NCBI RefSeq assembly: GCF_003841465.1
Contig: NZ_REFZ01000008.1
Span: forward strand, 62,001 to 126,000
DNA: 64,000 nucleotides
Origin: Natrarchaeobius oligotrophus
GTDB lineage: Archaea > Halobacteriota > Halobacteria > Halobacteriales > Natrialbaceae
Reading direction: 5' to 3'
Below the pieces are notes generated by a model. It did not search any database and was not told the origin of the DNA. It saw only the letters and a list, made by a program, of their open reading frames with translations. Below are positions 46,320 to 64,000 of this stretch, in pieces (positions within the stretch are counted from its first letter, which is position 1; every line of letters starts with the position of its first letter). The translations under genes were made by a program, and so were the position numbers.

Positions 46320-46392
46320 GGGCGTGTGGCCTAGCGGAGAGGGCAGGAGGTTCCTAACCTTCTGATCGCGGGTTCGAATCCCGCCACGCCCG
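46320..46392 (+). tRNA. tRNA-Arg (CCT anticodon)
   Basis: A full cloverleaf of 73 bases can be drawn. The acceptor stem GGGCGTG pairs with CACGCCC. The anticodon stem GGAGG pairs with CCTTC (one G-T pair) around loop TTCCTAA, anticodon CCT at 46353-46355. The T arm is GCGGG-TTCGAAT-CCCGC and the discriminator base is G. No CCA is encoded. It lies 12 bases after tatA and reads AGG codons. Two partial copies of its T arm lie downstream. Confidence 0.93.
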
Positions 46393-47134
46393 TGCAGCGA
46401 GCCACGCAGTGGCGAGCGAACCGGCATGGCGGGATTCGAATCAGACCGAGGTTCTGCGAGCGACGGCGAGCAGGTTCTCGGGCGTGGTTCGAATCCCGTC
46501 GCGACCGCTCACTCGCTTCGTTCGCTCGCGGCCGTGACGGAGCTCGCAAACGCGTCCCGTTTGCTCGCTCCGGTCACGTCCTGAACCTGCATGCGGCCGG
46601 ACGACCGCACCGAGCACTCGAGGGTCGAGACCACGTTCGATCGGTATCGCCGTGAGCGAGCACGGATCGCGCCTCGAGTACCGCCCACCTCCTCGCTCGC
46701 CCACGGGTGTGACGGAAAACGGGTCGCAGGAACTCGTTCTGCAGGTACACGTTCCCGACACGCTCTCACAGCCATCGAACGACGCGTCCGGTCGGGCGGT
46801 CACGACGCCGAACGCGTCGCCCTCCGCGAGGGCCCGCACTCGCGGCCGTTGGCTCGAGGAGCGAACCCGGAAGCACACCGAGCGAACCGCCGCCGCGAAG
46901 GTGGGACGAGCCGACGTCAACCACGGATTCACAACAACGGTGACAAAATTAACAATGTGGACGGATTGGAAACGGATCTCGAGAGTAAAATTATAATTAA
47001 ACCGTTTCTCGATGCAGATCTTAACGAAGAAAAATAATCTATTTATTCGATGGGAAAACGCCGACTCTCGGAGGTTATCAGGAGTGATAATGTGCACATG
47101 AAATTTTTGAAGGGTGAGGGTTTGGATGGTACCA
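46393..47134. other. 742-base gap between tRNA-Arg and the pilus operon, with T-arm copies
   Basis: No supported protein gene. Just after the tRNA there are two partial T-arm copies and several hairpin-like stretches (46395-46420 and 46505-46535). From about 46920 to 47110 the sequence is A/T-rich (for example TTATAATTAAACCG near 46990), which probably holds the promoter of the pilus ATPase gene. Confidence 0.5.
46423..46503. repeat. Inverted and direct copies of the tRNA-Arg T-arm/acceptor segment
   Basis: Bases 46423-46442 match the reverse complement of 46371-46390 of the tRNA at 18 of 20 positions. Bases 46486-46503 match 46371-46388 directly at 16 of 18 positions. The two copies are opposite to each other and could pair. 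They may be traces of integration at the tRNA or parts of a degenerate tRNA. Confidence 0.75.
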
Positions 47135-50100
47135 ATGGCTATTGACGAGGCTGATCGGTCGGATGCCGGGGAATTCTCCGAGGGCGAGGCATCCGACGCA
47201 GTGTCGGAGGGACGATCGGATTCGGGTGCGGGATCGGGCTCGCGCGAGCCGGCTCGGGTGGGCGAGTACACGTGGGCGGATTTCATGGACGAATACGGCC
47301 ACGGGGACGAGGTCGACGACCTCCCGCCGTACGGCCGCGGACCGAGAGAACCCGGCGACCAGCTCGGACTCGACACCGACGAGGACGAACCGACGGTGCC
47401 ACGCGGCGACGACTGGAACCACGTCGAGTTCGATCCGCAGACCTACCTGGGGTACCATCCCGACGAACTGACCGAGTGGATCCTCCCGACGGCGGGGGAC
47501 GACGCCGAGTTCCTCGAGGACGCCTTTCTCGAGTACGTCGATCCCGCGACGACGCCGGTCGTCAAGGACGTCTGGACCTGGGAGCACTACAAGTGGGAGT
47601 ACTACTACGACGACGACGGAAGCAGACCGCGCGACGAAACCGGCGAAATCGTTCCCCACGAGCCGGAGGAGGCGCTCGGTTTCGACCCCGATCGAATCGA
47701 AGAACGACTCTCGCTGGGAGACGATATCGCCATGGCGCTGGACGAAGTCGTCGACGAGCGGACCGTCAACGTCCAGGAGGATTTCGACGAAGACGAGTTC
47801 TTCTCGACGGCCGAGGGAACGACCACCGTCACCAACCGCTACGACCTCGAGAAGGCGGTGCCGTTCGAGAAGAAAACCCACTTCCGGGAAGTCGAGCGCT
47901 ACTGGGTGAACAAACCGTACGCCTGCGTCGTGATCTTCCACTCGGAGAAAGAAAACGAAAAGAAGTACTACGTCGTCGAGCCGTATCTCAACGAGATCGA
48001 ATCCGAGCTACAGGAGTTTCTGGCGGGCAAGCTCAGGCGGGCGATCAAGTACTCCGAAGAGGGAATCAAGGAGAAAGCGAGCGAGGAGGGCAGACGAACC
48101 GTCATCGAAAACGAGACGCGCCGACTCCTGAAACGGTACGACCTCTTCGACAGGACGGCCGGGAGTACGAAGGCCGGCCTCATCGAATCGCTTCGTTCGG
48201 TCCTGGACGACGAGGACGACGAAGACGGGAACGAGCCCCTCGAACTCGAGGGGATCGAGGTCCGACCGGAACCGATCGTGCTCGCGGAGGATCCGGACAC
48301 GTTGAACGAGTACCAGATCGAAAAACTGCTCTACCTGCTCAAGCGCGATTTCATCGGATACGAGCGGATCGACGGCATCAAACACGACATCAACGTCGAG
48401 GACATCTCGTGTGACGGCTACAACTCTCCGGTGTTCGTCTATCACTCCGAGTACGAACAGATCATCAGCAACATCTACCACGGGGAGGACGAACTCGACG
48501 ACTTCGTCGTGAAGCTTGCACAGCGATCGGGGAAAGGGATCAGCAAACGGCTTCCGCAGGTCGACGCGACGCTTCCGGACGGCTCGCGCGCCCAGCTAAC
48601 GCTCGGCAAGGAGGTATCCGACCACGGGACGAACTACACGATCCGTCAGTTCAAGGACGTGCCGTTCACGCCGATCGACCTCATCAACTGGAACACCTTC
48701 AGCCTGGACGAGATGGCGTTTCTCTGGCTGGCGATCGAGAATCACAAGAGTCTGATCTTCGCCGGCGGAACCGCGTCCGGGAAGACGACCTCGCTGAACG
48801 CCGTCTCGCTGTTCATCCCGAGCAACGCGAAGATCGTCTCGATCGAAGACACTCGCGAGGTCGAACTACCCCAGCGAAACTGGATCGCGAGCGTCACCCG
48901 GCCGTCGTTCAACGACGACGCAGCCGGCGACGTCGACGAGTTCGACCTCCTCGAGGCCGCGCTTCGTCAGCGACCCGACTACATCGTCATGGGTGAGATC
49001 CGGGGTGAAGAGGGACGAACGCTGTTTCAGGTCATGTCGACCGGCCACACGACCTACACGACGTTCCACGCCGACTCCGTCGACGAGGTGCTCAAGCGTT
49101 TTACGACCGATCCGATCAACGTCTCGAAGACGATGTTCACCGCGCTGGATCTGGTGTCGATCCAGACCCAGACGCGAGTTCACGGGTCGAAGGTGCGACG
49201 TAACAAGTCGTTGACGGAGATCAACCACTACGAGGCCGAACACGACGAGATCAACGTCCAGGACGTCTATCAGTGGCAGGCAGAAACAGACGAGTTCCTC
49301 AAGATGGGCGACTCGAACACCCTCGAGGAGATTCAGTTCGACCGCGGCTGGAGTACGGAGAAACTCGAGGATGAGCTGTTCAAACGCGAAGTTATCCTCG
49401 CGTATCTCATCAAAAACGAACTCAACACGTACGCGGAGGTCGCTGCGACCGTCCAGGCGTTCATCAACGATCCCGAGACGATCCTGACGCTCATCGCGAA
49501 CGGTCAGCTCGAGGACAGCCTCGACGACCTGCGCGAGATGGAGAGCGTCCTGATCGACGTCGACCCGGAGAAAGAAGCGCTCGTTCCGCGACCGTCCTCG
49601 ACGACGGAGACGTACAACCTCTCGATGGACATCTTAGAACGCGCCGAGGAGTCGCTGTTCGAGGAGTACCGCGGCAAGGTTCCCAGCGGACTCGCGAGCG
49701 CGCTCGGCGACTTCGAAGAGGGCCAGACGATCGAGGCCGAACCCGGATCGGGTGACGGATTCGACTTCGCCAACGACCTCGACGGCGACGAGTGGCAGTT
49801 CGACGACGCGGATTTCGATTCGGACCCTGTCGACGATGACGACGAACCGGTGTGGCTCGGAGCCGACGACGCCGCGGATACCGCAATCGCGGACGCGGAC
49901 GGACAGCTCGAGCCGGCAGAGAGCAGCGACTCCGTCGACGGGGAACTCGAACCCGCGGAAGAAACGACGGCTCCCGCGAACGGATCGAGCGCGGACGTCG
50001 CGGCCGGATCCGAACCAGAGCGTCGATCGCGTTCCGACGAGGACCGTCCGAGCGACGACCGTGAACGATCGGCGACTCGAGAAACCGCGAGCGACGTCGT

Positions 50101-50581
50101 CGAGGACGGCGAAGCCCTCGGCGGACTGTTCGACGACATGGAAGAGACCCTCGACACCCTCGGCGGTTCCCGTCGAGAGCGCCCGGGCGACGATCGGCGG
50201 TCACCCGAATCGAACGAACCCGAGCCCATGTTCCCGGACGGAAAACTGGACGTGGTGTTCGATCCCGAGTCGGACGACGAGGAGCCGTCGACCGATTTCA
50301 GCGGTGAACTCGACGAGCCGTCGGATTCGGACGAAACGGAGGCGGCTGATCCGCCGGACGGGCCCGCATCGGAACCCGAAACGGAAACCGACGAAACGAT
50401 CTTCGGAACGCACCCCGAGTCGCCGTTCAGCGAGGATTCCGAACCGACCGACGACGACGAAACGTCGCTGTTCGACGCCGCCGACGAGTCCGACGCCGAC
50501 GAATCGATCTTCGGTCGCTCCGGCGGAGCCGACGACGGTGACGACGCGGTCGACGAACGCGACGAGGAAGCAGACGAATGA
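47135..50581 (+). CDS. pilB: Type IV pilus/secretion ATPase (PilB/TadA/GspE-like) with long acidic tail
   Basis: A 1148-residue motor ATPase. Residues about 1-500 are an N-terminal region with acidic start. Walker A AGGTASGKTTSLNAVSL is near residue 545, the Asp-box SIEDTREVELPQRNW follows, and Walker B-type DYIVMGEIRGEEGRTLFQVMSTGHTTYTTFHAD is near 612. The final 280 residues (from about 868) are very rich in Asp, Glu, Ser and Pro and should be disordered. It would power assembly from the cytoplasm. ATG 47135 is taken; upstream starts at 47126 (ATG) and 47114 (GTG) are possible. The next gene, PilC/TadC-like, overlaps it by four bases. Confidence 0.93.
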   Translation: MAIDEADRSDAGEFSEGEASDAVSEGRSDSGAGSGSREPARVGEYTWADFMDEYGHGDEVDDLPPYGRGPREPGDQLGLDTDEDEPTVPRGDDWNHVEFDPQTYLGYHPDELTEWILPTAGDDAEFLEDAFLEYVDPATTPVVKDVWTWEHYKWEYYYDDDGSRPRDETGEIVPHEPEEALGFDPDRIEERLSLGDDIAMALDEVVDERTVNVQEDFDEDEFFSTAEGTTTVTNRYDLEKAVPFEKKTHFREVERYWVNKPYACVVIFHSEKENEKKYYVVEPYLNEIESELQEFLAGKLRRAIKYSEEGIKEKASEEGRRTVIENETRRLLKRYDLFDRTAGSTKAGLIESLRSVLDDEDDEDGNEPLELEGIEVRPEPIVLAEDPDTLNEYQIEKLLYLLKRDFIGYERIDGIKHDINVEDISCDGYNSPVFVYHSEYEQIISNIYHGEDELDDFVVKLAQRSGKGISKRLPQVDATLPDGSRAQLTLGKEVSDHGTNYTIRQFKDVPFTPIDLINWNTFSLDEMAFLWLAIENHKSLIFAGGTASGKTTSLNAVSLFIPSNAKIVSIEDTREVELPQRNWIASVTRPSFNDDAAGDVDEFDLLEAALRQRPDYIVMGEIRGEEGRTLFQVMSTGHTTYTTFHADSVDEVLKRFTTDPINVSKTMFTALDLVSIQTQTRVHGSKVRRNKSLTEINHYEAEHDEINVQDVYQWQAETDEFLKMGDSNTLEEIQFDRGWSTEKLEDELFKREVILAYLIKNELNTYAEVAATVQAFINDPETILTLIANGQLEDSLDDLREMESVLIDVDPEKEALVPRPSSTTETYNLSMDILERAEESLFEEYRGKVPSGLASALGDFEEGQTIEAEPGSGDGFDFANDLDGDEWQFDDADFDSDPVDDDDEPVWLGADDAADTAIADADGQLEPAESSDSVDGELEPAEETTAPANGSSADVAAGSEPERRSRSDEDRPSDDRERSATRETASDVVEDGEALGGLFDDMEETLDTLGGSRRERPGDDRRSPESNEPEPMFPDGKLDVVFDPESDDEEPSTDFSGELDEPSDSDETEAADPPDGPASEPETETDETIFGTHPESPFSEDSEPTDDDETSLFDAADESDADESIFGRSGGADDGDDAVDERDEEADE

Positions 50582-52638
50582 GCCTGCAGACTGACGGTTC
50601 GAACGTCGGCGGCGACGACGTCTCGACTCGATCCGACGTGCTCGGCGACGCGTTTTATCCGCTGTACACCCGCCTCTTCGACGAGGACAGCGAATTCGTC
50701 TCGGACGTCGAGACCAAACTCGCCCAGGCCCGGATGAGCGACACGGTCGAACTCTACCTCTCGCGAGCGCTCGGCATCGGCGTCATCACCGGGTTCGCGC
50801 TGTGGTTGATCGGGATAACGCTCGGATACGCGCTGTTTGCGACCGGATTTATCGCGATCGATCACATCATCGGTATTCCGGTCGGAAGCCAGACCCTGCT
50901 CGAGATCATCGACGTGTTACGGATACCGGCGCTGGTCGTCTTCACCGGGTTCGTGTTCGGGACGATCGGGTTCGGGCTCGGATTCGGCTCGCTCGTCGCG
51001 ATTCCGTACTCGCGGGTGTCGGCGCGCAAACGCGAGATCAACATGCTGTTGACCGACTCTGTCTCGTTCATGTACGCGCTCTCGGTCGGCGGGCTGAACC
51101 AGCTCGAGATCATCGACGCGATGGCCGAAGCCGACGACACCTACGGAGAGGTGTCCAAGGAGTTCCAGAGCATCGTCAAAGAGACCGAGTACTTCGGCGT
51201 CGACTACCGGACGGCGATCCGCAAGCAAGCCCTCGAAACGCCGAGCGACGAGCTGTCGCAGTTTCTGACCGACATGCTCTCGATCGTCAACAGCGGCGGT
51301 GACATGCAGAGCTTCCTCGAGGACAAGAAAGAAAAGCACATGCGAACGGCCAAGCAGGAACAGGAGCTCACCCTCGAGACGCTCGAACTGTTCGGCGAGA
51401 TGTACATGACGCTGTCGCTATTTCCGCTGTTGTTGATTATCATCATGGTCGTCATGCAGATGATTCCCCAGGCGGACGTCTCCAACGCGATGCTCTACAT
51501 GACGGTGTACGCGTTGATTCCGTTGATCGGGATCGCCTTTCTCGTCCTGGTTTCGACGGTCAAACACGACGAGACCGGCGACGGCTACCTGTCGATGGGA
51601 AGCGACGACCGACGACATCACGACGTCCAGGACGGCGGCGTCCTCAAGCTCGGATTCGTCGAACAGTTCACCGGCGAGCACAGCGTCTTCGACCGGGTCA
51701 AAAACCGCGAAGGGACGTACGAGACGATGGAGGTGCTCAGACAGCCCCACATCTTCTTCCGGGACAACCCGCTGTACACGTTGGCGTTGACCGTCCCCAT
51801 CTCGCTCGTGATCGTCGCGTTGGCCATGGTGAACGGATCCGCGCCGCTTTCGTGGAACGAACTCGTCGCGAACCCGATCTGGGGAACGTTCATCTACGTC
51901 TACGTGCCGCTGTACGTCACGGCGATTCCGCTCTCTATCTTCCGGGAGTGGAACGTCAGGCACAGAAACGCCGTCATCAGTCAACTCTCCGAGGACCTCC
52001 GGAAGCTCTCGAGCGCGAACGACACGGGACTGACGTTACTCGAGTCGCTCAAGGCCGTCTCCGATACGACGAGCGGACGGCTTCCGCGGGAGTTCGAGAT
52101 GATGCACACGAAGGTCAACTACGGGATGAGCCTGAAAGAAGCGCTAATCGAGTTCAACAACAAGTACCACATTCCGCGTTTGGCGCGAACGACCCGACTC
52201 ATCACCGAAGCACAGGAGGCCTCGAACCAGATATCTGACGTGCTCCGCACCGCAGCACAGGCCAGCGAAAATCACGACGACATCGAACGCGAGCGAAAAT
52301 CACGAACGCGGATGCAGGTGGTGATCATCGTCATGACGTTCATGACGGTGCTTGCGGTGATCGCGATCCTCAAAACGCAGTTTATCGACACGATGTCCGG
52401 CCTCGAAAGCGGCGGCGGTGGCGACGTGGGGTCCGACAGCGAACTCGCACAGGCGGACCTCAGCGAGAACGTCAACGTCGCGATGCTGTCCGTCCTGTTC
52501 TTTCACGCGATCACGTTACAGGGGATCATCTCGGGGTTCATCTGCGGCTACATCCGCGATGCGGACATCCTGAGCGGGCTGAAGTACGTGATCGTGCTGG
52601 CGACGTTCGCGCTGTTCGGATGGACGATGGTGGCCTGA
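50578..52638 (+). CDS. pilC: Type II secretion F/TadC-type integral membrane protein
   Basis: A 686-residue platform protein with several membrane helices. SRALGIGVITGFALWLIGITLGYALFATGF and later DKKEKHMRTAKQEQELTLETLELFGEMYMTLSLFPLLLIIIMVVMQM belong to the first GspF/TadC domain. The second half repeats the pattern (FRDNPLYTLALTVPISLVIVALAMV, then the C-terminal helices ending GLKYVIVLATFALFGWTMVA). It should form the inner-membrane ring on which the PilB-type ATPase acts. It overlaps the ATPase gene and is followed one base later by the pilin-like genes. Confidence 0.93.
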   Translation: MSLQTDGSNVGGDDVSTRSDVLGDAFYPLYTRLFDEDSEFVSDVETKLAQARMSDTVELYLSRALGIGVITGFALWLIGITLGYALFATGFIAIDHIIGIPVGSQTLLEIIDVLRIPALVVFTGFVFGTIGFGLGFGSLVAIPYSRVSARKREINMLLTDSVSFMYALSVGGLNQLEIIDAMAEADDTYGEVSKEFQSIVKETEYFGVDYRTAIRKQALETPSDELSQFLTDMLSIVNSGGDMQSFLEDKKEKHMRTAKQEQELTLETLELFGEMYMTLSLFPLLLIIIMVVMQMIPQADVSNAMLYMTVYALIPLIGIAFLVLVSTVKHDETGDGYLSMGSDDRRHHDVQDGGVLKLGFVEQFTGEHSVFDRVKNREGTYETMEVLRQPHIFFRDNPLYTLALTVPISLVIVALAMVNGSAPLSWNELVANPIWGTFIYVYVPLYVTAIPLSIFREWNVRHRNAVISQLSEDLRKLSSANDTGLTLLESLKAVSDTTSGRLPREFEMMHTKVNYGMSLKEALIEFNNKYHIPRLARTTRLITEAQEASNQISDVLRTAAQASENHDDIERERKSRTRMQVVIIVMTFMTVLAVIAILKTQFIDTMSGLESGGGGDVGSDSELAQADLSENVNVAMLSVLFFHAITLQGIISGFICGYIRDADILSGLKYVIVLATFALFGWTMVA

Positions 52639-52639
52639 G

Positions 52640-53188
52640 ATGCCTCGAGCGAATCCGCGAGCCGAGCCCGCACCCGACTCGAGCCGGGGACAGACCACGC
52701 AGGATTTCGTCGTCGGAATCGGAATCTTCGTTCTGGCCGTCGCGTTCGTGTTCACGACGGTGCCGACGTTTCTGGCAACGCCGACTGGATCGGTCGACGG
52801 CGCTGACCTCGCACAGGCCGACCGCGTCGCCGCGGTGATCGTCTCGGACCTCGAGACGGATACGCCGAACGAGCTGGACGGCGAGGCGTTCAACGACACG
52901 TACGGAGCGCACTGGGACGACGAAAACGCGACCGCGTGGTTCGGCCTGCGAGCGAGCGACGACGATCACCGCTTCGACAGGGTAAACGTCACCATCCGGG
53001 AACTCGAGGACGGACCGAACGATCCGCCGGTCGAACTGAACGAGAGCGGCGTCCCGCTGACGGTCGGCGACGACTACAGAAACCAGCCGTACGTGCAGGT
53101 CGATCGGATCGTGACGGTTACCGGTATCAACGAAAGCGCCGAGCTGGAAGAGGGCGATCCGCTGCGACTCGAGGTGCGGACGTGGTAA
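52640..53188 (+). CDS. Pilin-like single-helix secreted protein 1
   Basis: A 182-residue protein. After a short charged start (MPRANPRAEPAPDSSRGQTTQDF), a hydrophobic segment (VVGIGIFVLAVAFVFTTVPTFL) is followed by an exported acidic domain. This is the layout of type IV pilin-like subunits with an N-terminal hydrophobic helix; a possible prepilin peptidase site is RGQTTQDF but it is not of the classic form. From memory this resembles a haloarchaeal DUF family (DUF7287); treat that as unconfirmed. It begins one base after the pilC stop. Confidence 0.8.
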   Translation: MPRANPRAEPAPDSSRGQTTQDFVVGIGIFVLAVAFVFTTVPTFLATPTGSVDGADLAQADRVAAVIVSDLETDTPNELDGEAFNDTYGAHWDDENATAWFGLRASDDDHRFDRVNVTIRELEDGPNDPPVELNESGVPLTVGDDYRNQPYVQVDRIVTVTGINESAELEEGDPLRLEVRTW

Positions 53189-53189
53189 C

Positions 53190-53831
53190 ATGATCGGACG
53201 AAAATCGATCGGCGAAAACGCAGAGTCGGAGCGCGGGCAGGTATACACGCTCGAGGGATTCGCCGCGGCGGCGGTCGTACTGTTCGCGCTGTTGTTCGCC
53301 ATCCAGGCGGTCGTAATCGCGCCCGGCTCCGGCGGCGCGGTCGATCGAACGGCCCAGGCCCAGACCCAACAGGAGGTCCAGGATGCGCTGGTCGTCGCAG
53401 CGTACGCCGACGACGGCGACGGATCGCTGTCCGAACTGGTCCGCTACTGGGCGAACCGCGAGGACTTCGAATCGCACAACGTCGAGGATCACTTCGTGGA
53501 GTACTTCGTTCTCGGGGAGATCCTGGACTCGCATTTCACGGGCTCCGGTACCGGCGACCGGTACGGCGTCGAGTTCGTCTACCTGAACGAGAGCGAGCCC
53601 GAGAACGTCGGCCTCGTTGGATCGTCGACGAACGATCCGACGGCCGTCACGGCGAGTTACACCGCCACAATATACGAGGGTCAGAACGTGACGAAACTGG
53701 ATAACGGTGCAGTCGTGGAGAAAACCGAAAACGCCGAGATCGAAGACGAAACTTACAGCAGACTCCCGTCCGCGGAGACGGGATCGAATCCGGTTCACAA
53801 CGTCGTGGAGGTGCGAGTGACCGTATGGTAA
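53190..53831 (+). CDS. Pilin-like single-helix secreted protein 2
   Basis: A 213-residue protein starting MIGRKSIGENAESERGQVYTLEGFAAAAVVLFALLFAIQAVVIAP: charged start, then a hydrophobic helix, then an exported acidic domain. RGQVYTLEG before the helix recalls the charged-residue-plus-glutamate of type IV pilins. The C-terminal part is of beta type (VTASYTATIYEGQNVTKLDNGAVVEK). From memory similar to DUF7288, unconfirmed. It overlaps the next gene by seven bases. Confidence 0.8.
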   Translation: MIGRKSIGENAESERGQVYTLEGFAAAAVVLFALLFAIQAVVIAPGSGGAVDRTAQAQTQQEVQDALVVAAYADDGDGSLSELVRYWANREDFESHNVEDHFVEYFVLGEILDSHFTGSGTGDRYGVEFVYLNESEPENVGLVGSSTNDPTAVTASYTATIYEGQNVTKLDNGAVVEKTENAEIEDETYSRLPSAETGSNPVHNVVEVRVTVW

Positions 53832-54730
53832 CCGACGTTCGAGATCGCGGCCAGGTACTCCTCATCGGCGCGATCGTCATCGCGTTCGTCGTTCTCGGAA
53901 CCGTCGTCGCTTACAACGGGCTGATGCACACGGAGACGCTGTCCTCGAGTTCGACCGGCCAGGACGTCGAGAGAGCGGACGTGACCGGTCACGAACTCGA
54001 ACAGGCGATCCAGGGCCGGAGCGCGTGGTACGTCGAGCGTCGAGGTGGTCTCGAGACGATGCTTCAGGCGAGCGACCCCGAGACGGAGTTCTACGACGAA
54101 GACGAGTGGGAGACGGTGATCGTCGACGAGGTGTTGCCCCACTATCGCGACGACTCGATCAAGCGAACGCCTGCCGTCGTCGACGTGACGAACGTCTCGG
54201 AATCCGCGTCGATATCCGTTCTCGAAAACGAGGGTGCGCCGGTCGGTGACTACGAGGGAGAGGAAGTGTTCAACGGTACCGAAACCGGCGGCAACGTATT
54301 CGAGTTCGAGGTCTGGAACTTCGACTACGGCGGCGGCAGTAGCGAAGTGATCACGATCGAAACGCCGGAACAGCAGATCGATTTCGTCGTCGATCAGGGG
54401 GCAGAAGAGATCAGGTACGCCGGCGACGATTGTCAGATAAACGAACGTATCGAAGGGATCGATTTCGTAGAGGGGACCGTCGTGGATCGATTCGGCGGAA
54501 CGACTAGTTGCGATTTCGGCCCGATCGAGAAAGGAATGGAAGTCGAACGAATCGTGTTTACGGATATGTCGAGCGCGTACGAGTACGATCTTCGAGGCGT
54601 AGGCGAGAGTCACGAACGTGGAAACGCTGACGAGATTCCCTGGATTGTGGATGTTACCTACACCTACGACTCAAACGACGTCTCGAGCGAGCGCACGATC
54701 GAGGTCGACCTCTACGGTGAGCTGTTATGA
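53825..54730 (+). CDS. Pilin-like single-helix secreted protein 3
   Basis: A 301-residue protein with the start MVTDVRDRGQVLLIGAIVIAFVVLGTVVAYNGLMHTETLSS: RGQ then hydrophobic helix, then a large exported domain with two cysteines (DDCQINERI and TTSCDFGPIEKG) that may form a disulphide. From memory this is like DUF7261, unconfirmed. Its codons in the last third are less GC-biased than its neighbours. It overlaps the next gene by four bases. Confidence 0.8.
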   Translation: MVTDVRDRGQVLLIGAIVIAFVVLGTVVAYNGLMHTETLSSSSTGQDVERADVTGHELEQAIQGRSAWYVERRGGLETMLQASDPETEFYDEDEWETVIVDEVLPHYRDDSIKRTPAVVDVTNVSESASISVLENEGAPVGDYEGEEVFNGTETGGNVFEFEVWNFDYGGGSSEVITIETPEQQIDFVVDQGAEEIRYAGDDCQINERIEGIDFVEGTVVDRFGGTTSCDFGPIEKGMEVERIVFTDMSSAYEYDLRGVGESHERGNADEIPWIVDVTYTYDSNDVSSERTIEVDLYGELL

Positions 54731-55203
54731 GAGGCGATCCCGTGACGACCGATCGAGCGCTTTCGACCGCCGTCACCCACGTCCTCACGATGGGGATCAC
54801 GACGATCCTCGTTGCCGGGCTGCTCATGAGTTCGGGAACGCTGATCGAGGTGCAGTCGGATCGGAGCGCAGAACAGTCGCTCGAGACGATCGGCGAACGC
54901 CTGGCCGGCGAGATCGCGGACGTCGACCGGCTGGGAGGCGACGGCGACGCGGTGAACGTGACCGCGTCGCATCCGGAGACCGTCGCCGGATCGACGTATC
55001 GGATCGAACTCGAAGAGCGGAGCGCGTGCGCCGGCGATCCGTTACTCGACGGGAACGCGGACTGCCTTCGTTTGACCGCGAACGGGGCCGACGTCGAAGT
55101 GATCGTCCCGATCGCGAGCGAGAGCGACCTCGAGTACGGAAGCACGGCGACCGGCGGCACGATCGAGATCGAACACGACGGAACCGCGATCGGGATTCGG
55201 TGA
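54727..55203 (+). CDS. Pilin-like single-helix secreted protein 4
   Basis: A 158-residue protein: DRALSTAVTHVLTMGITTILVAGLLMSSGTL, the hydrophobic N-terminal helix, then a helical VQSDRSAEQSLETIGERLAGEIADVDRL, then a small exported domain with cysteines SACAGDPLLDGNADCLRL. The DRALSTAVTHVLTMGI start is like the S-x-x-V motif of haloarchaeal pilin-like families (DUF7266-like from memory). It overlaps the previous gene and is followed eight bases later by the fifth. Confidence 0.8.
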   Translation: MRGDPVTTDRALSTAVTHVLTMGITTILVAGLLMSSGTLIEVQSDRSAEQSLETIGERLAGEIADVDRLGGDGDAVNVTASHPETVAGSTYRIELEERSACAGDPLLDGNADCLRLTANGADVEVIVPIASESDLEYGSTATGGTIEIEHDGTAIGIR

Positions 55204-55210
55204 GTAGACG

Positions 55211-56014
55211 ATGAGACAAACGCGATTCACAGCAGCGTTCGGATCGACGACGGACGATCGAGGCGTAACCGAGGTACTCAGTTTCGTGCTGGTCTTTTCG
55301 ATCGTGCTCACGTCGGTGATCCTCGTCGGACTGGTCGGCTTCCAGGCGATCGAAGACTACCAGGAAAACGAAAAGCTCGGCAACGCCGAACGAGCGATGG
55401 ACGCGTTCGCCGACAACGCAAACGACGTCGTCCGGAACGACGGGGTGACTCACCGGTCCGGAACGCTCACCCTCCGCGAGGGGACCGTCTCACCGGGAGA
55501 AGCGGGGACGACCCTCGACGCGACGGTGTACGACGAACACGGATCGCCGACGTGGAACTGGAGCGACGAGTACGCAGGCGAGGATCTCGGCGCGTTCGTC
55601 TACGAGACCGACTCGATGACGGTCGCCTACGAGGGCGGTGGCGTCTTCCGGGGGAGCGGGGACGGCTCGAGTGCCGTCATCTCCGATCCGATGGTCACCT
55701 GTCGCGAACGCACCGACACCGCGTTGGTATCGCTCGTGAAAATTTCCCACGGCGACCGGTCGATCCAGAGCACCGAGGGGATGGAGTTCAGGCTCTCGAA
55801 AGTCGACGGTGAAACGGTGCGGAAGTTCGAAACCGGAACCGAGAACGTGACCGTCGAGGTCGAGGACGGACCGCACCGCGGCGGCTGGGAGACGTACTTC
55901 GAGAACGCGGAGGGATGGGAGTGGGACGAAACCGAGAACGCGGCCGTCTGCGACGCCGACAGCGTCTCGATCGACGTCGTCGAGGTCCAGATCGACTATC
56001 CCGAACTCGGCTGA
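55211..56014 (+). CDS. Pilin-like single-helix secreted protein 5
   Basis: A 267-residue protein starting with TTDDRGVTEVLSFVLVFSIVLTSVILVGLVGFQ; DRGVTEVL followed by a hydrophobic helix is very like archaeal type IV pilin (RGVSEVL-type) N-termini. The exported domain has several aromatic residues (WNWSDEYAGEDLG, GWEWDETEN) and cysteines MVTCRER and AVCDAD. From memory it resembles DUF7289. It is the last gene of the pilus-like operon, ending 55 bases before the convergent HsdR-N-like gene. Confidence 0.85.
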   Translation: MRQTRFTAAFGSTTDDRGVTEVLSFVLVFSIVLTSVILVGLVGFQAIEDYQENEKLGNAERAMDAFADNANDVVRNDGVTHRSGTLTLREGTVSPGEAGTTLDATVYDEHGSPTWNWSDEYAGEDLGAFVYETDSMTVAYEGGGVFRGSGDGSSAVISDPMVTCRERTDTALVSLVKISHGDRSIQSTEGMEFRLSKVDGETVRKFETGTENVTVEVEDGPHRGGWETYFENAEGWEWDETENAAVCDADSVSIDVVEVQIDYPELG

Positions 56015-56069: not shown

Positions 56070-57308
56070 TCAGGAATCCTCCCAGTCGCCGGTCAACATC
56101 GCCCGGAGCCCGGCTCGAGACGCGAGCGCTCGAATCCGCTCGGCGTGGTCCTCGAGCCCACCACCGACTTCGAGGTAGAGCCCGTTGGACAGCTGATACG
56201 GGGAGGTCATTGATTCGCTGTCGGATCCCGTGGGTTCGTCGTTCAGGACGACGCGGCCGTCCTCGGTGGGACGCCACGGAACCGAGACGCCGGAGAGCCC
56301 CCGGTCGAACAGGTACTCCGCCGCGTGGACGAGCGCCCGTCCGGAACTCGAGTGGCCGATCGCGCCGATCGAACCGCGGTCGTTGAAGAATTTGACGACG
56401 AACTCGCCGTCCCCGTCCGCATCCGCCGGTACGGTTTGCTCGTCAGTGTCAGCCCGCTCTGAGCCCGTCGGTGCAGCCGGTTCGTCGGATCCGGCTACGG
56501 CGGGTTCGTCGCGCCCGATAGTCTCTCCGTCGGCGGTTTGCGTTTCGTCCGAGCCGCTCGGGACGGACGCTTCGTCGTCGCGTTCGACTGCGCCGTCCAC
56601 CGCCGACGGCTCGGAGAACCGAAACGAAACGGATCCGGTCGACGCGTCGGACTCGTCGTTCGACCCGGCTGCGAACCGATCGTACTCGTCGCCAGCAAAC
56701 GAGACGATCAACCGATCGACGAACCTGTCCGCGGCGGACTCGAACTCCTCGGCGTAGCGCTCTCCGCCGGTCGCGGCGGTCAACCGCTCGACGAACGACC
56801 GAACGATCGCCGCTCGTTCGAGCGCGAGCCGTCGTCCGACGACCTCGGGGGCGTCGCCTTCGAGCCGGCGGCTCGCGTCCGCGCGGGTGAAGTGTTCGAT
56901 CGAGGATTCGTGCTCGGGTAGCGCAGGGAGACGACACGGGAGCCGATCGACGCCCGTCGTCCCCGCCAGAAAGAAGTACTCGCGACCGTTGGTGTAGAGC
57001 GCGCGGTCGACGCCGGTCCACGACATCGCTTCGAGGAGGTCCGTCGCCCGCGCCTCCTCGAGCGCGGTGCCGTAGGGCTCGACGGCGACGAACAGCGCGG
57101 GAATCGAGTCGACCGCGAGCACGTACTCGAGGTGAACGTCCTCGACGGCGTCGTCGACGACCGTCGCGTCGGCGGAGACGTTCCAGCCGAGCGTCTCGAG
57201 GAACGGTTCGACGATCCAGGTGCGCGTCTCGCCTGCGGTCGTCGGCGGGGCGGAGTCGACCAGCGTTCGACAGCGGGTGACGAACGGGCGAAGGTCGAGG
57301 CCGGTCAT
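56070..57308 (-). CDS. HsdR-N-like (restriction-endonuclease-fold) protein with acidic linker
   Basis: A 412-residue protein. The first 200 residues (WIVEPFLETLGWNV, DVHLEYVLAVDSIPALFVAVEPYGTALEEA, MSWTGVDRALYTNGREYFFLAG) resemble the N-terminal domain of type I restriction R subunits. In active enzymes the second strand gives E-x-K; here it reads VEPYG, so the Lys is missing and cleavage is unlikely. An acidic Ser/Asp/Glu-rich linker (about 235-305) leads to a C-terminal domain (FVVKFFNDRGSIGAIGHSSSGRALVHAAEYLFDRG) of unknown function. It lies between the pilus and che genes, convergent with the former. Confidence 0.7.
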   Translation of the reverse strand: MTGLDLRPFVTRCRTLVDSAPPTTAGETRTWIVEPFLETLGWNVSADATVVDDAVEDVHLEYVLAVDSIPALFVAVEPYGTALEEARATDLLEAMSWTGVDRALYTNGREYFFLAGTTGVDRLPCRLPALPEHESSIEHFTRADASRRLEGDAPEVVGRRLALERAAIVRSFVERLTAATGGERYAEEFESAADRFVDRLIVSFAGDEYDRFAAGSNDESDASTGSVSFRFSEPSAVDGAVERDDEASVPSGSDETQTADGETIGRDEPAVAGSDEPAAPTGSERADTDEQTVPADADGDGEFVVKFFNDRGSIGAIGHSSSGRALVHAAEYLFDRGLSGVSVPWRPTEDGRVVLNDEPTGSDSESMTSPYQLSNGLYLEVGGGLEDHAERIRALASRAGLRAMLTGDWEDS

Positions 57309-57405
57309 CGTTGGGTCGTACTCGACCGACGATCATGTAAACGGTGGTCGACACTCACGCAGCGAAGACGGTCACGCGTTCGGGTCCGTTCCCGGAAACG
57401 CCACC

Positions 57406-58224
57406 TCAGTTCGGTCCCGGCGACCGCTGGTAGATCCGCAATCGCGCGTCACGAACGTCGAAGCCGGTGTCGAACGTCGGCGGGATCGTCTCGGCTTTGC
57501 CGATCACGAGAAAGCCGTCGGGGACGAGCGAGTCCGAGATCACGTTCAGTATCGAGCGCTTGTACTCGTTGTCGATGTAGATGAACAGGTTCCGACAGAC
57601 GACGAGATCGAAGCCGGATTTCGGTCCGTCGTTGATCAGATCGTGGCGCTCGAAGGAGACGACGTCGCGGACGCGGTCGGCGATTCGGTACGTGTTCTCT
57701 TCGGTCTCGACGTACTCGTCGTAAGAGTCCAGAAACTCGAGTTGCTCCCGAACGTCGACCGTCCGCGATTCGGCGTAGACGCCCCGGCGCGCCGTCTCGA
57801 GTGCGGGTTCGCTGATGTCCGTTCCGAGAATGCGAACCGACTCCCGGTCGATCACCGGATCGTCGTGGACGAGCATCGACAGCGAGTACGCTTCGCGACC
57901 GTCGGCACAGGCGGCGCTCCAGATACGAATCTCGTCGCGAGCGGCCGCGATTCGTCGAAGGACGGCACGGATACCCGACCACACGTCGGGATTGCGAAAG
58001 AACCCGGTGACGTTGATGCTCATCGCCTCGAGCAGCGCCGTCCGTTCGTCGGGGTCGGACCGCAGCAACTCGAAGTACTCGTCGTACGTGTCCGTGCGCG
58101 TGCGTCGCATTCGCGAGGAGACGCGACGGTCGAGGTAGCCGTCGTTGTAGTGGCTCGTCGCGAACGCGAGTTCTTCCTCGACGAACGAAAGGAGCTCCTC
58201 GAGGGCGTCTGTGGTCGCGGTCAC
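57406..58224 (-). CDS. cheR: Chemotaxis protein methyltransferase CheR
   Basis: A 272-residue SAM-dependent enzyme that methylates glutamates of transducers. The SAM site is IRIWSAACADGREAYSLSM, then VRILGTDISEPALETARRGVY, and VVCRNLFIYIDNEYKRSILNVI is the CheR C-terminal mark; the N-terminal domain with NVTGFFRNP is also present. It starts at GTG 58224, whose codon overlaps the stop of cheD (GTGA), so the two are coupled. It is the last gene of the leftward cheA-C-C2-D-R run seen here. Confidence 0.95.
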   Translation of the reverse strand: MTATTDALEELLSFVEEELAFATSHYNDGYLDRRVSSRMRRTRTDTYDEYFELLRSDPDERTALLEAMSINVTGFFRNPDVWSGIRAVLRRIAAARDEIRIWSAACADGREAYSLSMLVHDDPVIDRESVRILGTDISEPALETARRGVYAESRTVDVREQLEFLDSYDEYVETEENTYRIADRVRDVVSFERHDLINDGPKSGFDLVVCRNLFIYIDNEYKRSILNVISDSLVPDGFLVIGKAETIPPTFDTGFDVRDARLRIYQRSPGPN

Positions 58225-58742
58225 AGCTCGGACACGCTGCTTTCGTTCTCGTCGGAGGTTTTGACGACGAGTCGTCCCGTTCCGGGCGTGAACTCCACCG
58301 TTCGACCGTGGGCACCGCCGACATCTTCGCCGATCAGCGGAACGCCGAGTTTCTCGAGTTCCGCTTTCGCGGCATCGACGTTGCGCTTGCCGACGCCGTC
58401 GCCGAAGCTATCGAATTCGAACATGTCGCTGCCGCCCGCGATCTTGGCCTCGACGTCTGTGTAGCTCGCGCCGCGTTCGACCATCCGGCGTAACAGCGCC
58501 CTGATCGCCGTGTCGGCGTACTTGCCGGGTTTGCGGTCGCTGTTGTGTTCCGCGGCGTCGCCGTCGGGCAACATGGCGTGTGCGAGGCCGCCGATTTCGC
58601 TGTCCGGATCGTAGAGCGCGATCGCGAGACACGAGCCGAGTCCGTAGGATTTGAGCGTATCATCGCCCTCGCTGACCGCCAGCTCGGAGATGCCGACCTG
58701 GACCGGTGAGGGCGCGCCCGGTTCGCTTCCGTACGTCTTCAT
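58221..58742 (-). CDS. cheD: Chemoreceptor glutamine deamidase CheD
   Basis: A 173-residue protein acting on transducer glutamines and as a partner of CheC. LKSYGLGSCLAIALYDPDSEIGGLAHAMLPD carries the catalytic Cys and His (GSC...H), and RNVDAAKAELEKLGVPLIGEDVGGAHGRTVEFTPGTGRLVVK is the typical end. It overlaps the double cheC gene at its start (ATGA) and cheR at its end. Confidence 0.96.
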   Translation of the reverse strand: MKTYGSEPGAPSPVQVGISELAVSEGDDTLKSYGLGSCLAIALYDPDSEIGGLAHAMLPDGDAAEHNSDRKPGKYADTAIRALLRRMVERGASYTDVEAKIAGGSDMFEFDSFGDGVGKRNVDAAKAELEKLGVPLIGEDVGGAHGRTVEFTPGTGRLVVKTSDENESSVSEL

Positions 58743-59989
58743 ACGGTATCGACTTCCTGAAACTCCGCCGTGGTCGGCGTCTCCTCGATTCGATCGACGT
58801 CGAGATCGTTCAGCGCGCGCTCGAGATCGGACTCGTCCGCGATCGCGTACACTTCGCAGTCGAACTCGCGGCCGTCGGCGACGACGACGGTGTCGAAGAC
58901 GAACGCGAACTCCTGATTTGCGCCCAGTTTGACGATAACCGGATCGACCGCCGCAGCACCGTAGTCGTGGACGAACTCCGGCGTCGAGTGGTCGATCGCC
59001 GTATCGAGTACGTTCGCCCAACCGTCGAGAAATCCGCTGGCCATGATGTTGCCGAGTTCCTTGATTGCACTCGTTCCCATCTGCCCGAAGCCGTCCTCGT
59101 CGATCGACGCCGGAACCATCGCGTCGACGATCTCGTGGGCCGACTCCTCGTCGAACAGGAAGACGAGGTAGCCACTCGGAACGCCGTCGAACTCGAAGGC
59201 AACGCTGACCAGTCGTTCGTCCGGCACCTGTTGGGGGATCGTCTCGAGCGAGACGAAGTTGAGCCGACGGATCTCCACGCTGGTGTCGATGCCGGTGAGC
59301 GTCGTCGCGGTTTTTGCGACCTCTTCGGCACCGCGTTCGGCCATGCGGTCGAAACCGTCGAGTTTGTCGTACTCGATCCCGCCGCTCGCGCGCAATCGCT
59401 CGAGCAGCGACGCCATCGACGTTCGGTTGGGAAAGAGGTAGTAACTGAAACTGATCTCGGTGTCGACGGCCTCGATCCGGCTCTGGAAGAGCAACGCGAG
59501 GTCGTCGTCGTCGGGCGTCTCCTCGATGCCGTCGAAGAAGGGATCGGCCGTCCGACCCTCGACGAACTCCGGCGTCGAGACGTCGATAACGGTCTCGAGA
59601 ACGTCGGCCCAGCCGTCGATAAAGCCGCTGTTCATGATGTGGCCGACCTCGGTAGTTGCGCTTTTGCTCATCCGATCGAACGAATCGACGTCGAAGTCGG
59701 CGTCGGGATCAGCTTCGGCCAGTAGCGTCTCGATGACCCGCACCGCGTTTTCGCGCTCGAAGACGATCAGCGAGTGGCCCTCGATCGCGCCGCTGAGCTT
59801 TACCCGAACGCCGACCCGATCCGTCTCGCCGAAATCCCGACGGATCTCGCGGCCGCGCATGAAGTTCAACTTCGTCACGCCGACCCGCGTTTCGACGCCG
59901 GTCATGTGGGTCAGCCGACCCGCCGCGAGTCCGGCGCCTTCCCGCGCCATTCGATAGAACGTCCCGAGTGCGTTGACGTCGAGTTTCAT
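58739..59989 (-). CDS. cheC: Double CheC-domain phosphatase
   Basis: A 416-residue protein of two CheC units in tandem. The second unit has the exact phosphatase pattern S-x3-E-x2-N-x22-P (SAIKELGN through TP). In the first unit the corresponding sequence is SATTEVGHIMNSGF, so the Asn is His. CheC removes phosphate from CheY-P and is bound by CheD. The gene overlaps the stop of the upstream single-unit cheC by three bases, and its own stop overlaps cheD. Two-unit CheC proteins are known in archaea; the asymmetry is noted under findings. Confidence 0.92.
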   Translation of the reverse strand: MKLDVNALGTFYRMAREGAGLAAGRLTHMTGVETRVGVTKLNFMRGREIRRDFGETDRVGVRVKLSGAIEGHSLIVFERENAVRVIETLLAEADPDADFDVDSFDRMSKSATTEVGHIMNSGFIDGWADVLETVIDVSTPEFVEGRTADPFFDGIEETPDDDDLALLFQSRIEAVDTEISFSYYLFPNRTSMASLLERLRASGGIEYDKLDGFDRMAERGAEEVAKTATTLTGIDTSVEIRRLNFVSLETIPQQVPDERLVSVAFEFDGVPSGYLVFLFDEESAHEIVDAMVPASIDEDGFGQMGTSAIKELGNIMASGFLDGWANVLDTAIDHSTPEFVHDYGAAAVDPVIVKLGANQEFAFVFDTVVVADGREFDCEVYAIADESDLERALNDLDVDRIEETPTTAEFQEVDTV

Positions 59990-60591
59990 GCGGTTTGGAC
60001 TTCGATGCCGTTGACCATTTCGACGAACTCTTCCAGGTCGGGGAAGGCGTAAATTTCGGCTTCGATCTGATAGCTCGGCACGGTCAGATCCGAATCGAAA
60101 AACAGGGCGAGATCGTCGCCACCGAGGCCAGCGGTTCTGGTGACGATGTCGCCGGCCGGCGCGTAGACGAGCTGCGGAGCCGCGATGTCGATCACGCGCC
60201 CGAGGACGTCGGCCCAGCCGTCGATGAAGCCGCTGGCCATCATGTTCCCCATCTCTTCGACCGCACTCCTGGCCATCTTGCCCGAGACGTCCGACATGTC
60301 GTCGACGACGTCGCTGAGCATGATCGCCGTGATCTTCTTGGCGCTCGCTTCCGGAAAGAGGATGAGGATGTGGCCGTGGGGCGGATCGAGCAACCGAACG
60401 CGAACGCCGACGCGCTTGCCGGGCTCGAGCTGGGCTTCGATGTCGTCGACGTCGACGAAGTTCGTCTTCGTGACGTCCATCCGGGCGTCCTCTCCGGTCA
60501 GCTTGCTCATGTTGTCGGCGACGCCGTTCGTTCCGACTTTGGCCATCTCGTTTATGAAACTCAGCTTCCGAATGTCGACCATCAGCGTCAT
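59986..60591 (-). CDS. cheC: CheY-P phosphatase CheC
   Basis: A 201-residue single CheC protein. SAVEEMGNMMASGFIDGW followed by 13 residues and P matches S-x3-E-x2-N-x22-P exactly. The N-terminal half (FINEMAKVGTNGVADNMSKLTG) lacks a second full motif. It begins 40 bases after the cheA stop and overlaps the double cheC gene. ATG 60591 is used; ATG 60582 (MVDIRKLSFINE) is also possible. Confidence 0.93.
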   Translation of the reverse strand: MTLMVDIRKLSFINEMAKVGTNGVADNMSKLTGEDARMDVTKTNFVDVDDIEAQLEPGKRVGVRVRLLDPPHGHILILFPEASAKKITAIMLSDVVDDMSDVSGKMARSAVEEMGNMMASGFIDGWADVLGRVIDIAAPQLVYAPAGDIVTRTAGLGGDDLALFFDSDLTVPSYQIEAEIYAFPDLEEFVEMVNGIEVQTA

Positions 60592-60631
60592 TGCAGCCTC
60601 CGTCCGTATCTGTCGTCGTGTACGTATCCAA

Positions 60632-63600
60632 TCATAGTGTTGTCACGTCGATGATGTTGATCACTTTTCCTCTGCCGCGAACCGTCGCACCGCTGAGCCC
60701 CGGGATACCGCCCATGAACCCCTCGAAAGGTTTGACCACGACTTCCTGTTGGCCCTCGACGTTGTCGCACTGGAGGGCAACGGGGCGAACGGAATCCCGG
60801 ATGCGCACCACGACGCCGCCGTCACCGTTCGACGCGGGTTCCGGCACGTCGAGCGCCTCCTCGAGCCGAACGACGGGATAGGTTCGTTCGCCGTCGGAGA
60901 TCACCCGTTCGCCGTCGACGATCTCGATCGAACTGGCGACGTCGACGTCGTGGACCGCTTCGGTTGGAATTCCGAACTCTTCGGTTCCGCACTGGACGAA
61001 CAGCACGTCGTCGATCGCGATCGAGACGGGAAGCGTCATCGTGACCGTCGTCCCCTCGCCAGGTTCGCCGTCGATCGACACCGATCCGCCCATCTCCTCG
61101 ATCGTCCGTCTGACGACGTCCATCCCGACGCCGCGGCCGCTAACGTCGGTCACCTCCGTCGCGGTCGAGAGCCCGGGTTCGAAGATGAGCCGCGCGGCCT
61201 CGTCGTCGGAGAGGTCGGCGGCGTCCTCTTCGTCGAGAACGCCCGCGTCGACCGCCTCCGAGCGGAGGCGGTCGGGATCGAGTCCGGAGCCGTCGTCCGC
61301 GACCGTGATCGTCACGCGATCGCGCGAGCGCGTTGCCGCCACCTCGACCTGTCCCTCAGGTGGTTTGTCGACGCTCTTTCGCTTCTCGGGAGGTTCGATC
61401 CCGTGATCGACCGCGTTCCGAACCAGGTGAATCAGCGGATCCCGAAGCCGGTCGAGGATGCTTCTGTCGAGTTCGACGTCACCGCCGGTCAGCTCGAAGG
61501 CGACGTCTTTGTCCTGATCGCGAGCGATATCGCGGACGATCCGCGGGAGTCGGTTCGCGACCGTCTCGAGCGGGATCAACCGGACGTCCATCACCGTCTC
61601 CTGTAACTCCGTCGTGAGGTCGTCGAGATCCTCGAGTTCGGCTTCGATCGCCTCGAAGTCCCGGTTCGATTCCACCTCGTGGCGCAGGCGGACGCGGCTC
61701 GTGACGAGCCCCTCGACGAGGGTAACGAGATCGTCGATCTGATCGACGTCCACGCGCACCGACTGGAGGCCGTCGGCGTCGTCCTCGGACGTCGGCCGAT
61801 CGGACGGCTCGGGAACGGTGACGTCGGGAATCTCGAGCTCCGGCTCCTCGACGACTCTCGTAACGTCGTCGCCGGAGTGTGCGGATTCGTCCTCGACGTC
61901 GGCCCTCGAGGACGAATCCGCACCGACCTCGTCGAACCGGTCGTCGATGCCGACGCCGAACTCCGCGTCGTCGAAGGCGTCCTCACCGAACGTCTCCTCG
62001 AACGAATCGTCCGCATCGTCGACGAGGTCGAGCGGATCGACGTCCGCGTCCGCCGATCCGTCGACTTCGCTCGCATCGTCGGCGTCGTCGAAACCGCCGA
62101 AATCTGGCTCCGACGTCGGTTCGAACGCAGACTCCTGACCGTCCTCAGCGTCGAACCCGTCGTCGGCGTCGTCGATCGGCGAAACGGTGGTCTCGTCGTC
62201 GTCGAACGCGATGTCGGAGTCCTCGACCGACGCGTCGAACGCGCCGTCGGCGTCGGAGAACGCCCCCTCGAACTCGGCGCTCGAGGAGTCCGCGGACGCG
62301 AATCCGCCGAACTCGTCCGTCGACGAGGCCTCGGAATCCGGCGTCGCGGATTCGTCGAACTCCTGGAAACGCTGCTCGTCGGCGTCCTCGAGTTCGCCGG
62401 TCGCATCTTCTGCGTCCTCGGCCTCTTCGTCCGAATCGTCGAATTGATCGCGTTCGCCGTCCGCGCTCTCGACGTCGTCGACCGGTTCGTCGGATTCGAT
62501 CGACGACTCCGAATCGACGACCGATTTCCACTCGCTTTCGGCCGCCGTCTCGAGGTCGCGATCGGTCACCGATTCGTCGGCTTCGGAGGTCGATTCGTCG
62601 GCTCCGGTGGTCGATTCGACGTCGTCGATCTCGTCCGATTCCGCGTCGTCAGCCTCGCCCGATTCTGCGTCGACTGACGCGTTCGCTTTCGCGCCGACGG
62701 AACCGGCGACGTCCGCAGCAGGCTCGGAGTCGGCTTCCGCAGTCGTTTCGCCGACGTCCCCGCCGTCGTCGGACGAACCGAGCAGGAACTCGTCTAACTC
62801 GTCGTCGGAAACCGGATCGTCCGCCGTGGCGTCGTCGCCGCTTCCGGCGTCGTCGTCCGACGCCGCGTCGACTTCGACGTCTTCTTCGAATTCCGCGCCG
62901 GAACCGACGTTCTCGACGCTCTCCTCGAGTTCAGCCTCGGAATCGTCGTCCGCGAAGTCGTCGCCGAGGAGCTCGTCCATGCTGACCTCCTCTTCGTCGT
63001 CGAACTCGTCGAACTCGAGTTCCTCGAGTTCCTCCTGGAGTTCGTCAAAACCAACGGTGTCGACTTCGGCTTTGAGTTCGGCGAAGACCGCTTCGGCGTC
63101 CTCGACCTCATCGTCTTCGGCGTCGGTAGCGACGGATTCCTCGGGTGCGACGTCCGAACTCGAGTCCTCCGCATCGGCGAACAGATCGTCGAACGAGCCG
63201 GCGTCACCCATCTCGTCGAAGACGTCCAGATCGTCGTCCGCCTCGACTTCCTTTACCTTCTCGTCGAGGTCGTCGAACTCGTCGAACTCCGAGAGTAAGT
63301 CGTCGACCCCGAGCGATTTGGCCTCGTCCGAAGAGATCGTCGCACCGCTTACGTCGTCGTCGAGTCGCCCGGTCTCGACGGACGGCGTCGGGCCCGCGTC
63401 GGCCGCAATCGACGTGAGCCGATCCGTCACCGCCACGATCTCGAAGTCCGCCACCTCCTCGACGGACTCGAGCCCGGAGGTGATCGCGGCTTCGCCGACG
63501 GCACAGCCGAAGACGGCGTCGAACCGTCCGCCGTAGGAGCCGTCTTCGATGCGGCCGCGTGCCGGAACCGTTCCGATCAGATCGAACGCGTCGATCAGCG

Positions 63601-64000
63601 CGTCGACGACGAGCGCGCCGTTGTCGCGGCTGCGCGTCTCGGCGTCCGATGCCGCGATCGCGATCCGGGCCAGGTAGGCGTCGTGGCCGTCGTCTCTGGG
63701 CGGCTCGAACCGCGAGAGAACCGATTCGATCTCGTCGTCGCCGGGCGGATCGACCGACGAGATCGGCGCAGTATCGAGGTGGTCGCGAAGCGTTCGGATC
63801 GTCGGCGACGGATCGGTCTCGATCGATCCGCTCGCCTCGAGTTCGTCGACCATCCGCTCGAGTTCGTCGACGGCCGTGAAGACGTCGTCCATCACGTCGG
63901 CCGTGACCGCGAGATCGCCCGCCCGAACCGCGTCGAGTAGGTCTTCGATCGCGTGTGCGAGGTCGCTCGCCGACTCGAGGCCCGCCGCACCGCAGTTGCC
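60632..64000 (-). CDS. cheA: Chemotaxis histidine kinase CheA (N-terminus beyond window)
   Basis: 1122 residues are visible; the frame is open to the window edge. The first residues (GNCGAAGLESASDLAHAIEDLLDAVRAGDL) belong to the HPt (P1) domain; the phospho-His HxxKGN lies just outside. About residues 213-733 are an extremely acidic Asp/Glu/Ser-rich region. Then come P3 dimerisation (SVRVDVDQIDDLVTLVEGLVTSRVRLR), the P4 ATPase with HLVRNAVDHGIE (N box), VADDGSGLD and GRGVGMDVVRRT, and the P5 CheW-like domain ending KVINIIDVTTL. It phosphorylates CheY and CheB in response to transducers. It starts the che transcript seen here, 40 bases ahead of cheC. Confidence 0.95.
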   Translation of the reverse strand, partial: GNCGAAGLESASDLAHAIEDLLDAVRAGDLAVTADVMDDVFTAVDELERMVDELEASGSIETDPSPTIRTLRDHLDTAPISSVDPPGDDEIESVLSRFEPPRDDGHDAYLARIAIAASDAETRSRDNGALVVDALIDAFDLIGTVPARGRIEDGSYGGRFDAVFGCAVGEAAITSGLESVEEVADFEIVAVTDRLTSIAADAGPTPSVETGRLDDDVSGATISSDEAKSLGVDDLLSEFDEFDDLDEKVKEVEADDDLDVFDEMGDAGSFDDLFADAEDSSSDVAPEESVATDAEDDEVEDAEAVFAELKAEVDTVGFDELQEELEELEFDEFDDEEEVSMDELLGDDFADDDSEAELEESVENVGSGAEFEEDVEVDAASDDDAGSGDDATADDPVSDDELDEFLLGSSDDGGDVGETTAEADSEPAADVAGSVGAKANASVDAESGEADDAESDEIDDVESTTGADESTSEADESVTDRDLETAAESEWKSVVDSESSIESDEPVDDVESADGERDQFDDSDEEAEDAEDATGELEDADEQRFQEFDESATPDSEASSTDEFGGFASADSSSAEFEGAFSDADGAFDASVEDSDIAFDDDETTVSPIDDADDGFDAEDGQESAFEPTSEPDFGGFDDADDASEVDGSADADVDPLDLVDDADDSFEETFGEDAFDDAEFGVGIDDRFDEVGADSSSRADVEDESAHSGDDVTRVVEEPELEIPDVTVPEPSDRPTSEDDADGLQSVRVDVDQIDDLVTLVEGLVTSRVRLRHEVESNRDFEAIEAELEDLDDLTTELQETVMDVRLIPLETVANRLPRIVRDIARDQDKDVAFELTGGDVELDRSILDRLRDPLIHLVRNAVDHGIEPPEKRKSVDKPPEGQVEVAATRSRDRVTITVADDGSGLDPDRLRSEAVDAGVLDEEDAADLSDDEAARLIFEPGLSTATEVTDVSGRGVGMDVVRRTIEEMGGSVSIDGEPGEGTTVTMTLPVSIAIDDVLFVQCGTEEFGIPTEAVHDVDVASSIEIVDGERVISDGERTYPVVRLEEALDVPEPASNGDGGVVVRIRDSVRPVALQCDNVEGQQEVVVKPFEGFMGGIPGLSGATVRGRGKVINIIDVTTL

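Follow-up and report, generated by a model that had tools for sequence, protein, structure and literature searches.

A probable PilB4-type archaeal type IV pilus operon with five prepilin-like proteins in Natrarchaeobius oligotrophus

The seven-gene operon and its ATPase

We analysed a stretch of 64,000 nucleotides from Natrarchaeobius oligotrophus (the window), which corresponds to G000:C8:62001-126000. At 47135-56014, on the + strand, it contains a seven-gene operon in which genes for a secretion ATPase (pilB) and a platform protein (pilC) are followed by genes for DUF7287, DUF7288, DUF7261, DUF7266, and DUF7289 proteins, in that order (Table 1). Neighbouring genes overlap by at most 7 nt or are spaced by at most 7 nt. 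The coordinates and the number of genes in the first-pass annotation of this DNA agree exactly with ours. That annotation also described the operon as pilus-like and possibly multi-component, and it was right to do so.

Table 1. The operon and its flanking features, by position in the window. Cleavage sites are predicted.
Feature	Position	Strand	Product	Pfam match	Predicted cleavage
tRNA-Arg (CCT)	46320-46392	+	tRNA
pilB	47135..50581	+	PilB4-type secretion ATPase, 1148 aa (ATG start)	T2SSE, PilB3_C
pilC	50578..52638	+	PilC/TadC platform, 686 aa	T2SSF (two stretches)
DUF7287	52640..53188	+	pilin-like, 182 aa	DUF7287	G17/Q18 (SSRG|QTTQDF)
DUF7288	53190..53831	+	pilin-like, 213 aa	DUF7288	G16/Q17 (SERG|QVYTLE)
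DUF7261	53825..54730	+	pilin-like, 301 aa	DUF7261	G9/Q10 (RDRG|QVLLIG)
DUF7266	54727..55203	+	pilin-like, 158 aa	DUF7266	A11/L12 (TDRA|LSTAVT)
DUF7289	55211..56014	+	pilin-like, 267 aa	DUF7289	G18/V19 (DDRG|VTEVLS)
412-aa protein and chemotaxis cluster	56070-63895	-	412-aa protein, CheR, CheD, CheC-like, CheA-like	none for the 412-aa protein
CheA-like gene of this cluster	60632-63895	-	CheA-like protein

The ATPase contains the Walker A motif, the Asp box, the Walker B motif, and the His box, and its PilB3_C domain scores above the Pfam cut-off. (An alternative GTG start at 47114 would give a protein of 1155 aa.) The core of the enzyme corresponds roughly to residues 240-790 and is flanked by an acidic N-terminal region and by an acidic C-terminal tail that is poor in hydrophobic residues. 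The ATPase had been singled out as unusually long, and these additional N- and C-terminal parts account for its length: the published PilB4 ATPase of Haloferax volcanii, which is specific to Halobacteria, has such extra parts as well (PMC4858521). Counted as the residues beyond query position 866, the tail spans about 20-40 in most Haloarculaceae, mostly about 60-225 in Haloferacaceae, and about 220-600 in Natrialbaceae. Over this whole range of tail lengths, from about 20 to about 600 residues, the set of genes does not change. In a tree of ATPases, the nearest named relative of the operon's PilB is from Natrialba swarupiae, and the protein clusters with its counterparts from two Haloferax loci (L090 and L091), apart from the branches of the other paralogues.

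Prepilin sites and outer domains of the five small proteins

Archaeal prepilins are processed at sites with G, A, or S at position -1 and a charged residue at position -2 (PMC4371748). We aligned the five families around the predicted sites (70-72 rows per family and 357 sequences overall). Position -2 is arginine in 356 of the 357 sequences and lysine in the remaining one, and position -1 is G or A throughout, except for serine in two sequences. All five small proteins thus have a conserved R-[GAS] site directly before the hydrophobic helix, and because of these conserved residues we consider all five to be prepilin-like. The first-pass annotation had seen no perfect classic cleavage site except perhaps in the last protein (DRGVTEVL), which was incorrect. 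Beyond the site itself, glutamine at +1 is invariant in DUF7287, DUF7288, and DUF7261, as are an aspartate at +5 in DUF7287 and a glutamate at +6 in DUF7288. As a check on the background, we ran a crude scan for a strict prepilin pattern across 41 tiled ORFs of the window; five had it, all but one of which encode pilins of the operon. The remaining pilin, DUF7266, probably fails the strict pattern because of a histidine in its helix.

The operon does not include a prepilin peptidase, as had been remarked before. A profile search of the genome identified a single one (PF01478), which is encoded on another contig (G000:C20:11241-11621) and carries a GxHyD-type motif, GGAD. In most archaea, one prepilin peptidase serves all of the prepilins (PMC4371748), so its location away from the operon is ordinary. 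The same source mentions two relatively large FlaFind-positive pilins for PilB4-C4.

The five proteins had also been described as having unrelated outer domains, and our comparisons fit with this. Profile-profile comparisons, which covered five of the ten pairs of families, gave weak similarities of low probability for DUF7288 with DUF7287 (E = 0.00017) and for DUF7289 with DUF7266 (E = 0.00031) and little for the other compared pairs; across these five pairs, there was no clear similarity outside of the N-terminal region. The two outer domains that we modelled differ from each other. The DUF7289 model (mean pLDDT 91) has a 60-residue helix and a beta domain, which is the usual lay-out of a pilin, and the DUF7288 model (mean pLDDT 80) has several helices and then a beta sheet. 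Fold searches did not match either model to a solved pilin: for DUF7288, the Foldseek E value was at best 0.14 and the VIA-align Z score at most 4.7, and for DUF7289 these were 0.03 and 2.6. Such missing matches are no proof of a new fold. Similarly, searches of PDB sequences with four of the pilin profiles gave nothing significant; DUF7266 had weak N-terminal similarity to PilA2 of Natrinema (8gi2), which was non-significant (E = 1.6). DUF7261 evolves quickly and is very variable in length.

In both DUF7287 and DUF7288, an invariant tryptophan is the last residue (window 53183-53185 and 53826-53828, respectively), and it follows strands that are rich in V, R, and T. This hints at a last strand that the two families share.

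We found no paper under the names of the five DUFs, and arCOG numbers led to PMC4858521 only. Going by the description published there, DUF7266 is probably arCOG03926, the predicted major pilin, and DUF7289 is probably arCOG02911.

Conservation of the operon and of the five-pilin cassette

A scan with the ATPase yielded 80 loci in other haloarchaea. All seven genes are present at 69 of these loci, and at 68 they are in the same order and on the same strand, which is far beyond chance. The platform gene was detected at 79 of the 80. The first-pass annotation had made its reading depend on the five proteins being conserved together with the ATPase, and they are. At the 69th complete locus (L092), the best match to DUF7289 is an extra copy on the opposite strand, and a weaker match lies in the expected order.

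Seven of the 11 incomplete loci run short of sequence at the end of a contig. At the Haloarcula pellucida locus (L093), the stretch that we fetched contains no pilins, and the genome has two DUF7288 genes; judging from the coordinates, one of these is on the same contig and probably lies just past the fetched stretch. DUF7261 went undetected at two loci (L094 and L112), the first of which also has no detectable DUF7266. In Haloterrigena sp. H1 (L082:9977-16844), the ATPase gene is interrupted, the platform gene is short, and DUF7288 is absent from the whole genome, so this strain appears to have lost the entire system naturally. Conversely, Haloferax marinum has a second full copy of the seven genes (L158).

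The pilin genes also occur more widely. Among 197 genomes from the phylum, we found DUF7287 in 141 and DUF7288 in 142. We fetched 20 loci around such matches, and the members that we detected were always in the order DUF7287-7288-7261-7266-7289, with none out of place. At about half of these loci, DUF7261 or DUF7266 went undetected, and the models that we built for these two families missed the genes at some of the loci. For ten such gaps, an ORF that passes the crude site pattern was present in four (several with a DUF7261-like start) and nothing was found in the other six. An ATPase gene was visible in just 4 of the 20 stretches, so the cassette often has no adjacent motor, as judged within 15 kb or less. 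N. oligotrophus itself has a five-pilin cassette of this kind (G000:C1:168437-172985, or L132:8438-12986), and next to it, on the other strand, comes a DUF7289-like protein of greater length (439 aa). Another genome (G055) carries one operon plus a cassette that stands by itself. Makarova et al. (2016, PMC4858521) had already pointed out that motor modules and pilin sets evolve separately. To this we add that the order of all five pilins is fixed through the phylum and that the cassette also occurs without an adjacent motor.

Assignment to a known type and probable function

The PilB4 (HVO_1160) locus of Haloferax volcanii was described as a clade 2 archaeal type IV pilus (Makarova et al. 2016, PMC4858521). 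Like the operon in our window, it has an extended ATPase specific to Halobacteria, a platform gene, and its own set of pilins (PMC4858521). The Haloferax loci L090 and L091 share with our operon all seven genes and, upstream of them, the neighbours HD, peroxiredoxin, and TatA, whereas the ATPase tail is longer here (about 280 residues past query position 866, versus about 200-225). We propose that the operon encodes an archaeal type IV pilus of the PilB4 type (probability about 0.85); the PilB4 name is carried over by way of these two other Haloferax species, the neighbouring genes, and the published description. The class of the system is highly probable, and operons of this type are already known. 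The first-pass annotation had supposed that such a system was not described in detail. This holds for experiments, but the type of locus has been published as a PilB4-type archaeal type IV pilus with its own pilins (PMC4858521).

From the established biology of type IV pili, the five prepilins would be inserted into the membrane via Sec and lose their short leader to PibD, whose gene lies outside the operon; PilB, acting via PilC, would then pack their helices together as a filament crossing the S-layer. With less certainty, the small DUF7266 protein may be the main building block (a candidate major pilin), and the remaining four may act as minor pilins in initiating and capping the filament; of these, DUF7261 is perhaps the most exposed. 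We lean towards the view that PilB4 and PilC4 build a surface filament for attachment from these pilins, and contact with surfaces or with other cells is its most likely role. The accounts of PilB4 systems that we consulted report no filament, and PMC4371748 only suggests a pilus-like structure. These papers include expression data but no deletion phenotype: PilB4 was detected only in cells grown in one medium, the minimal medium GMM (PMC7305310), and in H. gibbonsii infected with HFTV1, pilB4-C4 transcripts decrease (PMC12542753).

It is possible, if rather doubtful, that all five proteins are minor pilins that form an initiating and tip complex, that a PilA-type major pilin comes from elsewhere, and that the cassette serves more than one motor. 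The motor-less cassettes described above are consistent with this, and in the bacterial Com pilus, four minor pilins probably make up a tip complex. Furthermore, the PilB3-PilC3 adhesion pilus of H. volcanii, whose ATPase belongs to the same clade 2 family, uses pilins encoded in trans: its operon contains no pilin genes and it relies on PilA1-6 (PMC4858521). In contrast, the operon here has five pilin genes. (The likely PilB3-like copy in N. oligotrophus, L133, is on a separate branch of the ATPase tree.) Against all five being minor pilins, the published analysis predicts a major pilin within the PilB4 set itself (PMC4858521), and at most haloarchaeal loci the cassette lies directly behind the motor.

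It is unlikely that the machine builds, in place of a long pilus, a short pseudopilus made of these five proteins that expels proteins from the cell in the manner of type II secretion. A motor, a platform, and five pilin-like proteins likewise make up the core of a type II secretion system. The closest solved relative of our ATPase, 2oap, is even named "Type II secretion system protein", but this decides nothing because archaeal ATPases of the PilB family are common to pili and archaella. On the other side, no gene for a secreted cargo was found in the operon, and haloarchaea are not known to have an outer membrane. We give similarly little weight to a reading in which the five assemble into a single fixed hetero-oligomer, either a tip complex or a short pseudopilus. 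This unit would be the truly conserved entity of the system, could work with different motors, and would serve some process besides adhesion, for instance the export of proteins or transfer between cells.

A pilus for DNA uptake is very improbable. The bacterial comG operon, which encodes the Com pilus, also specifies a motor, a platform, and five pilin-like proteins, of which four are minor pilins. Our operon has the archaeal type of ATPase and of prepilin site, and the resemblance is one of lay-out only. We set this reading aside on finding a ComEC-type channel (PF03772) in 0 of 31 haloarchaeal genomes, versus 10 of 14 control genomes.

The ATPase and platform are also related to those of the archaellum (arl operon). 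We discarded the archaellum as a candidate on the scores against its equivalogs, which were 394 bits for the ATPase (cut-off 550) and 76 for the platform (cut-off 550). Judging from the tree, a separate ATPase encoded on another contig (G000:C10) is ArlI-like.

Under the preferred reading, a PilB4-type type IV pilus, the conserved prepilin sites and the single gene order across the phylum turn five Pfam families of the DUF kind into testable subunits, and which pilin forms the filament becomes a question that can be answered directly in H. volcanii.

The tRNA-Arg (CCT) gene sits between tatA and pilB, and in several relatives the interval from this tRNA to pilB is enlarged to several kb, with varying gene content; the interval is possibly an insertion hot spot. 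On the other side, the 412-aa protein and the chemotaxis cluster are encoded directly downstream of the operon and convergently with it. This arrangement is kept at many Natrialbaceae loci and differs from what lies downstream of the Haloferax PilB4-type loci. The kinase part of the CheA-like protein is preceded by a very long acidic stretch, which recalls the acidic tail of the ATPase.
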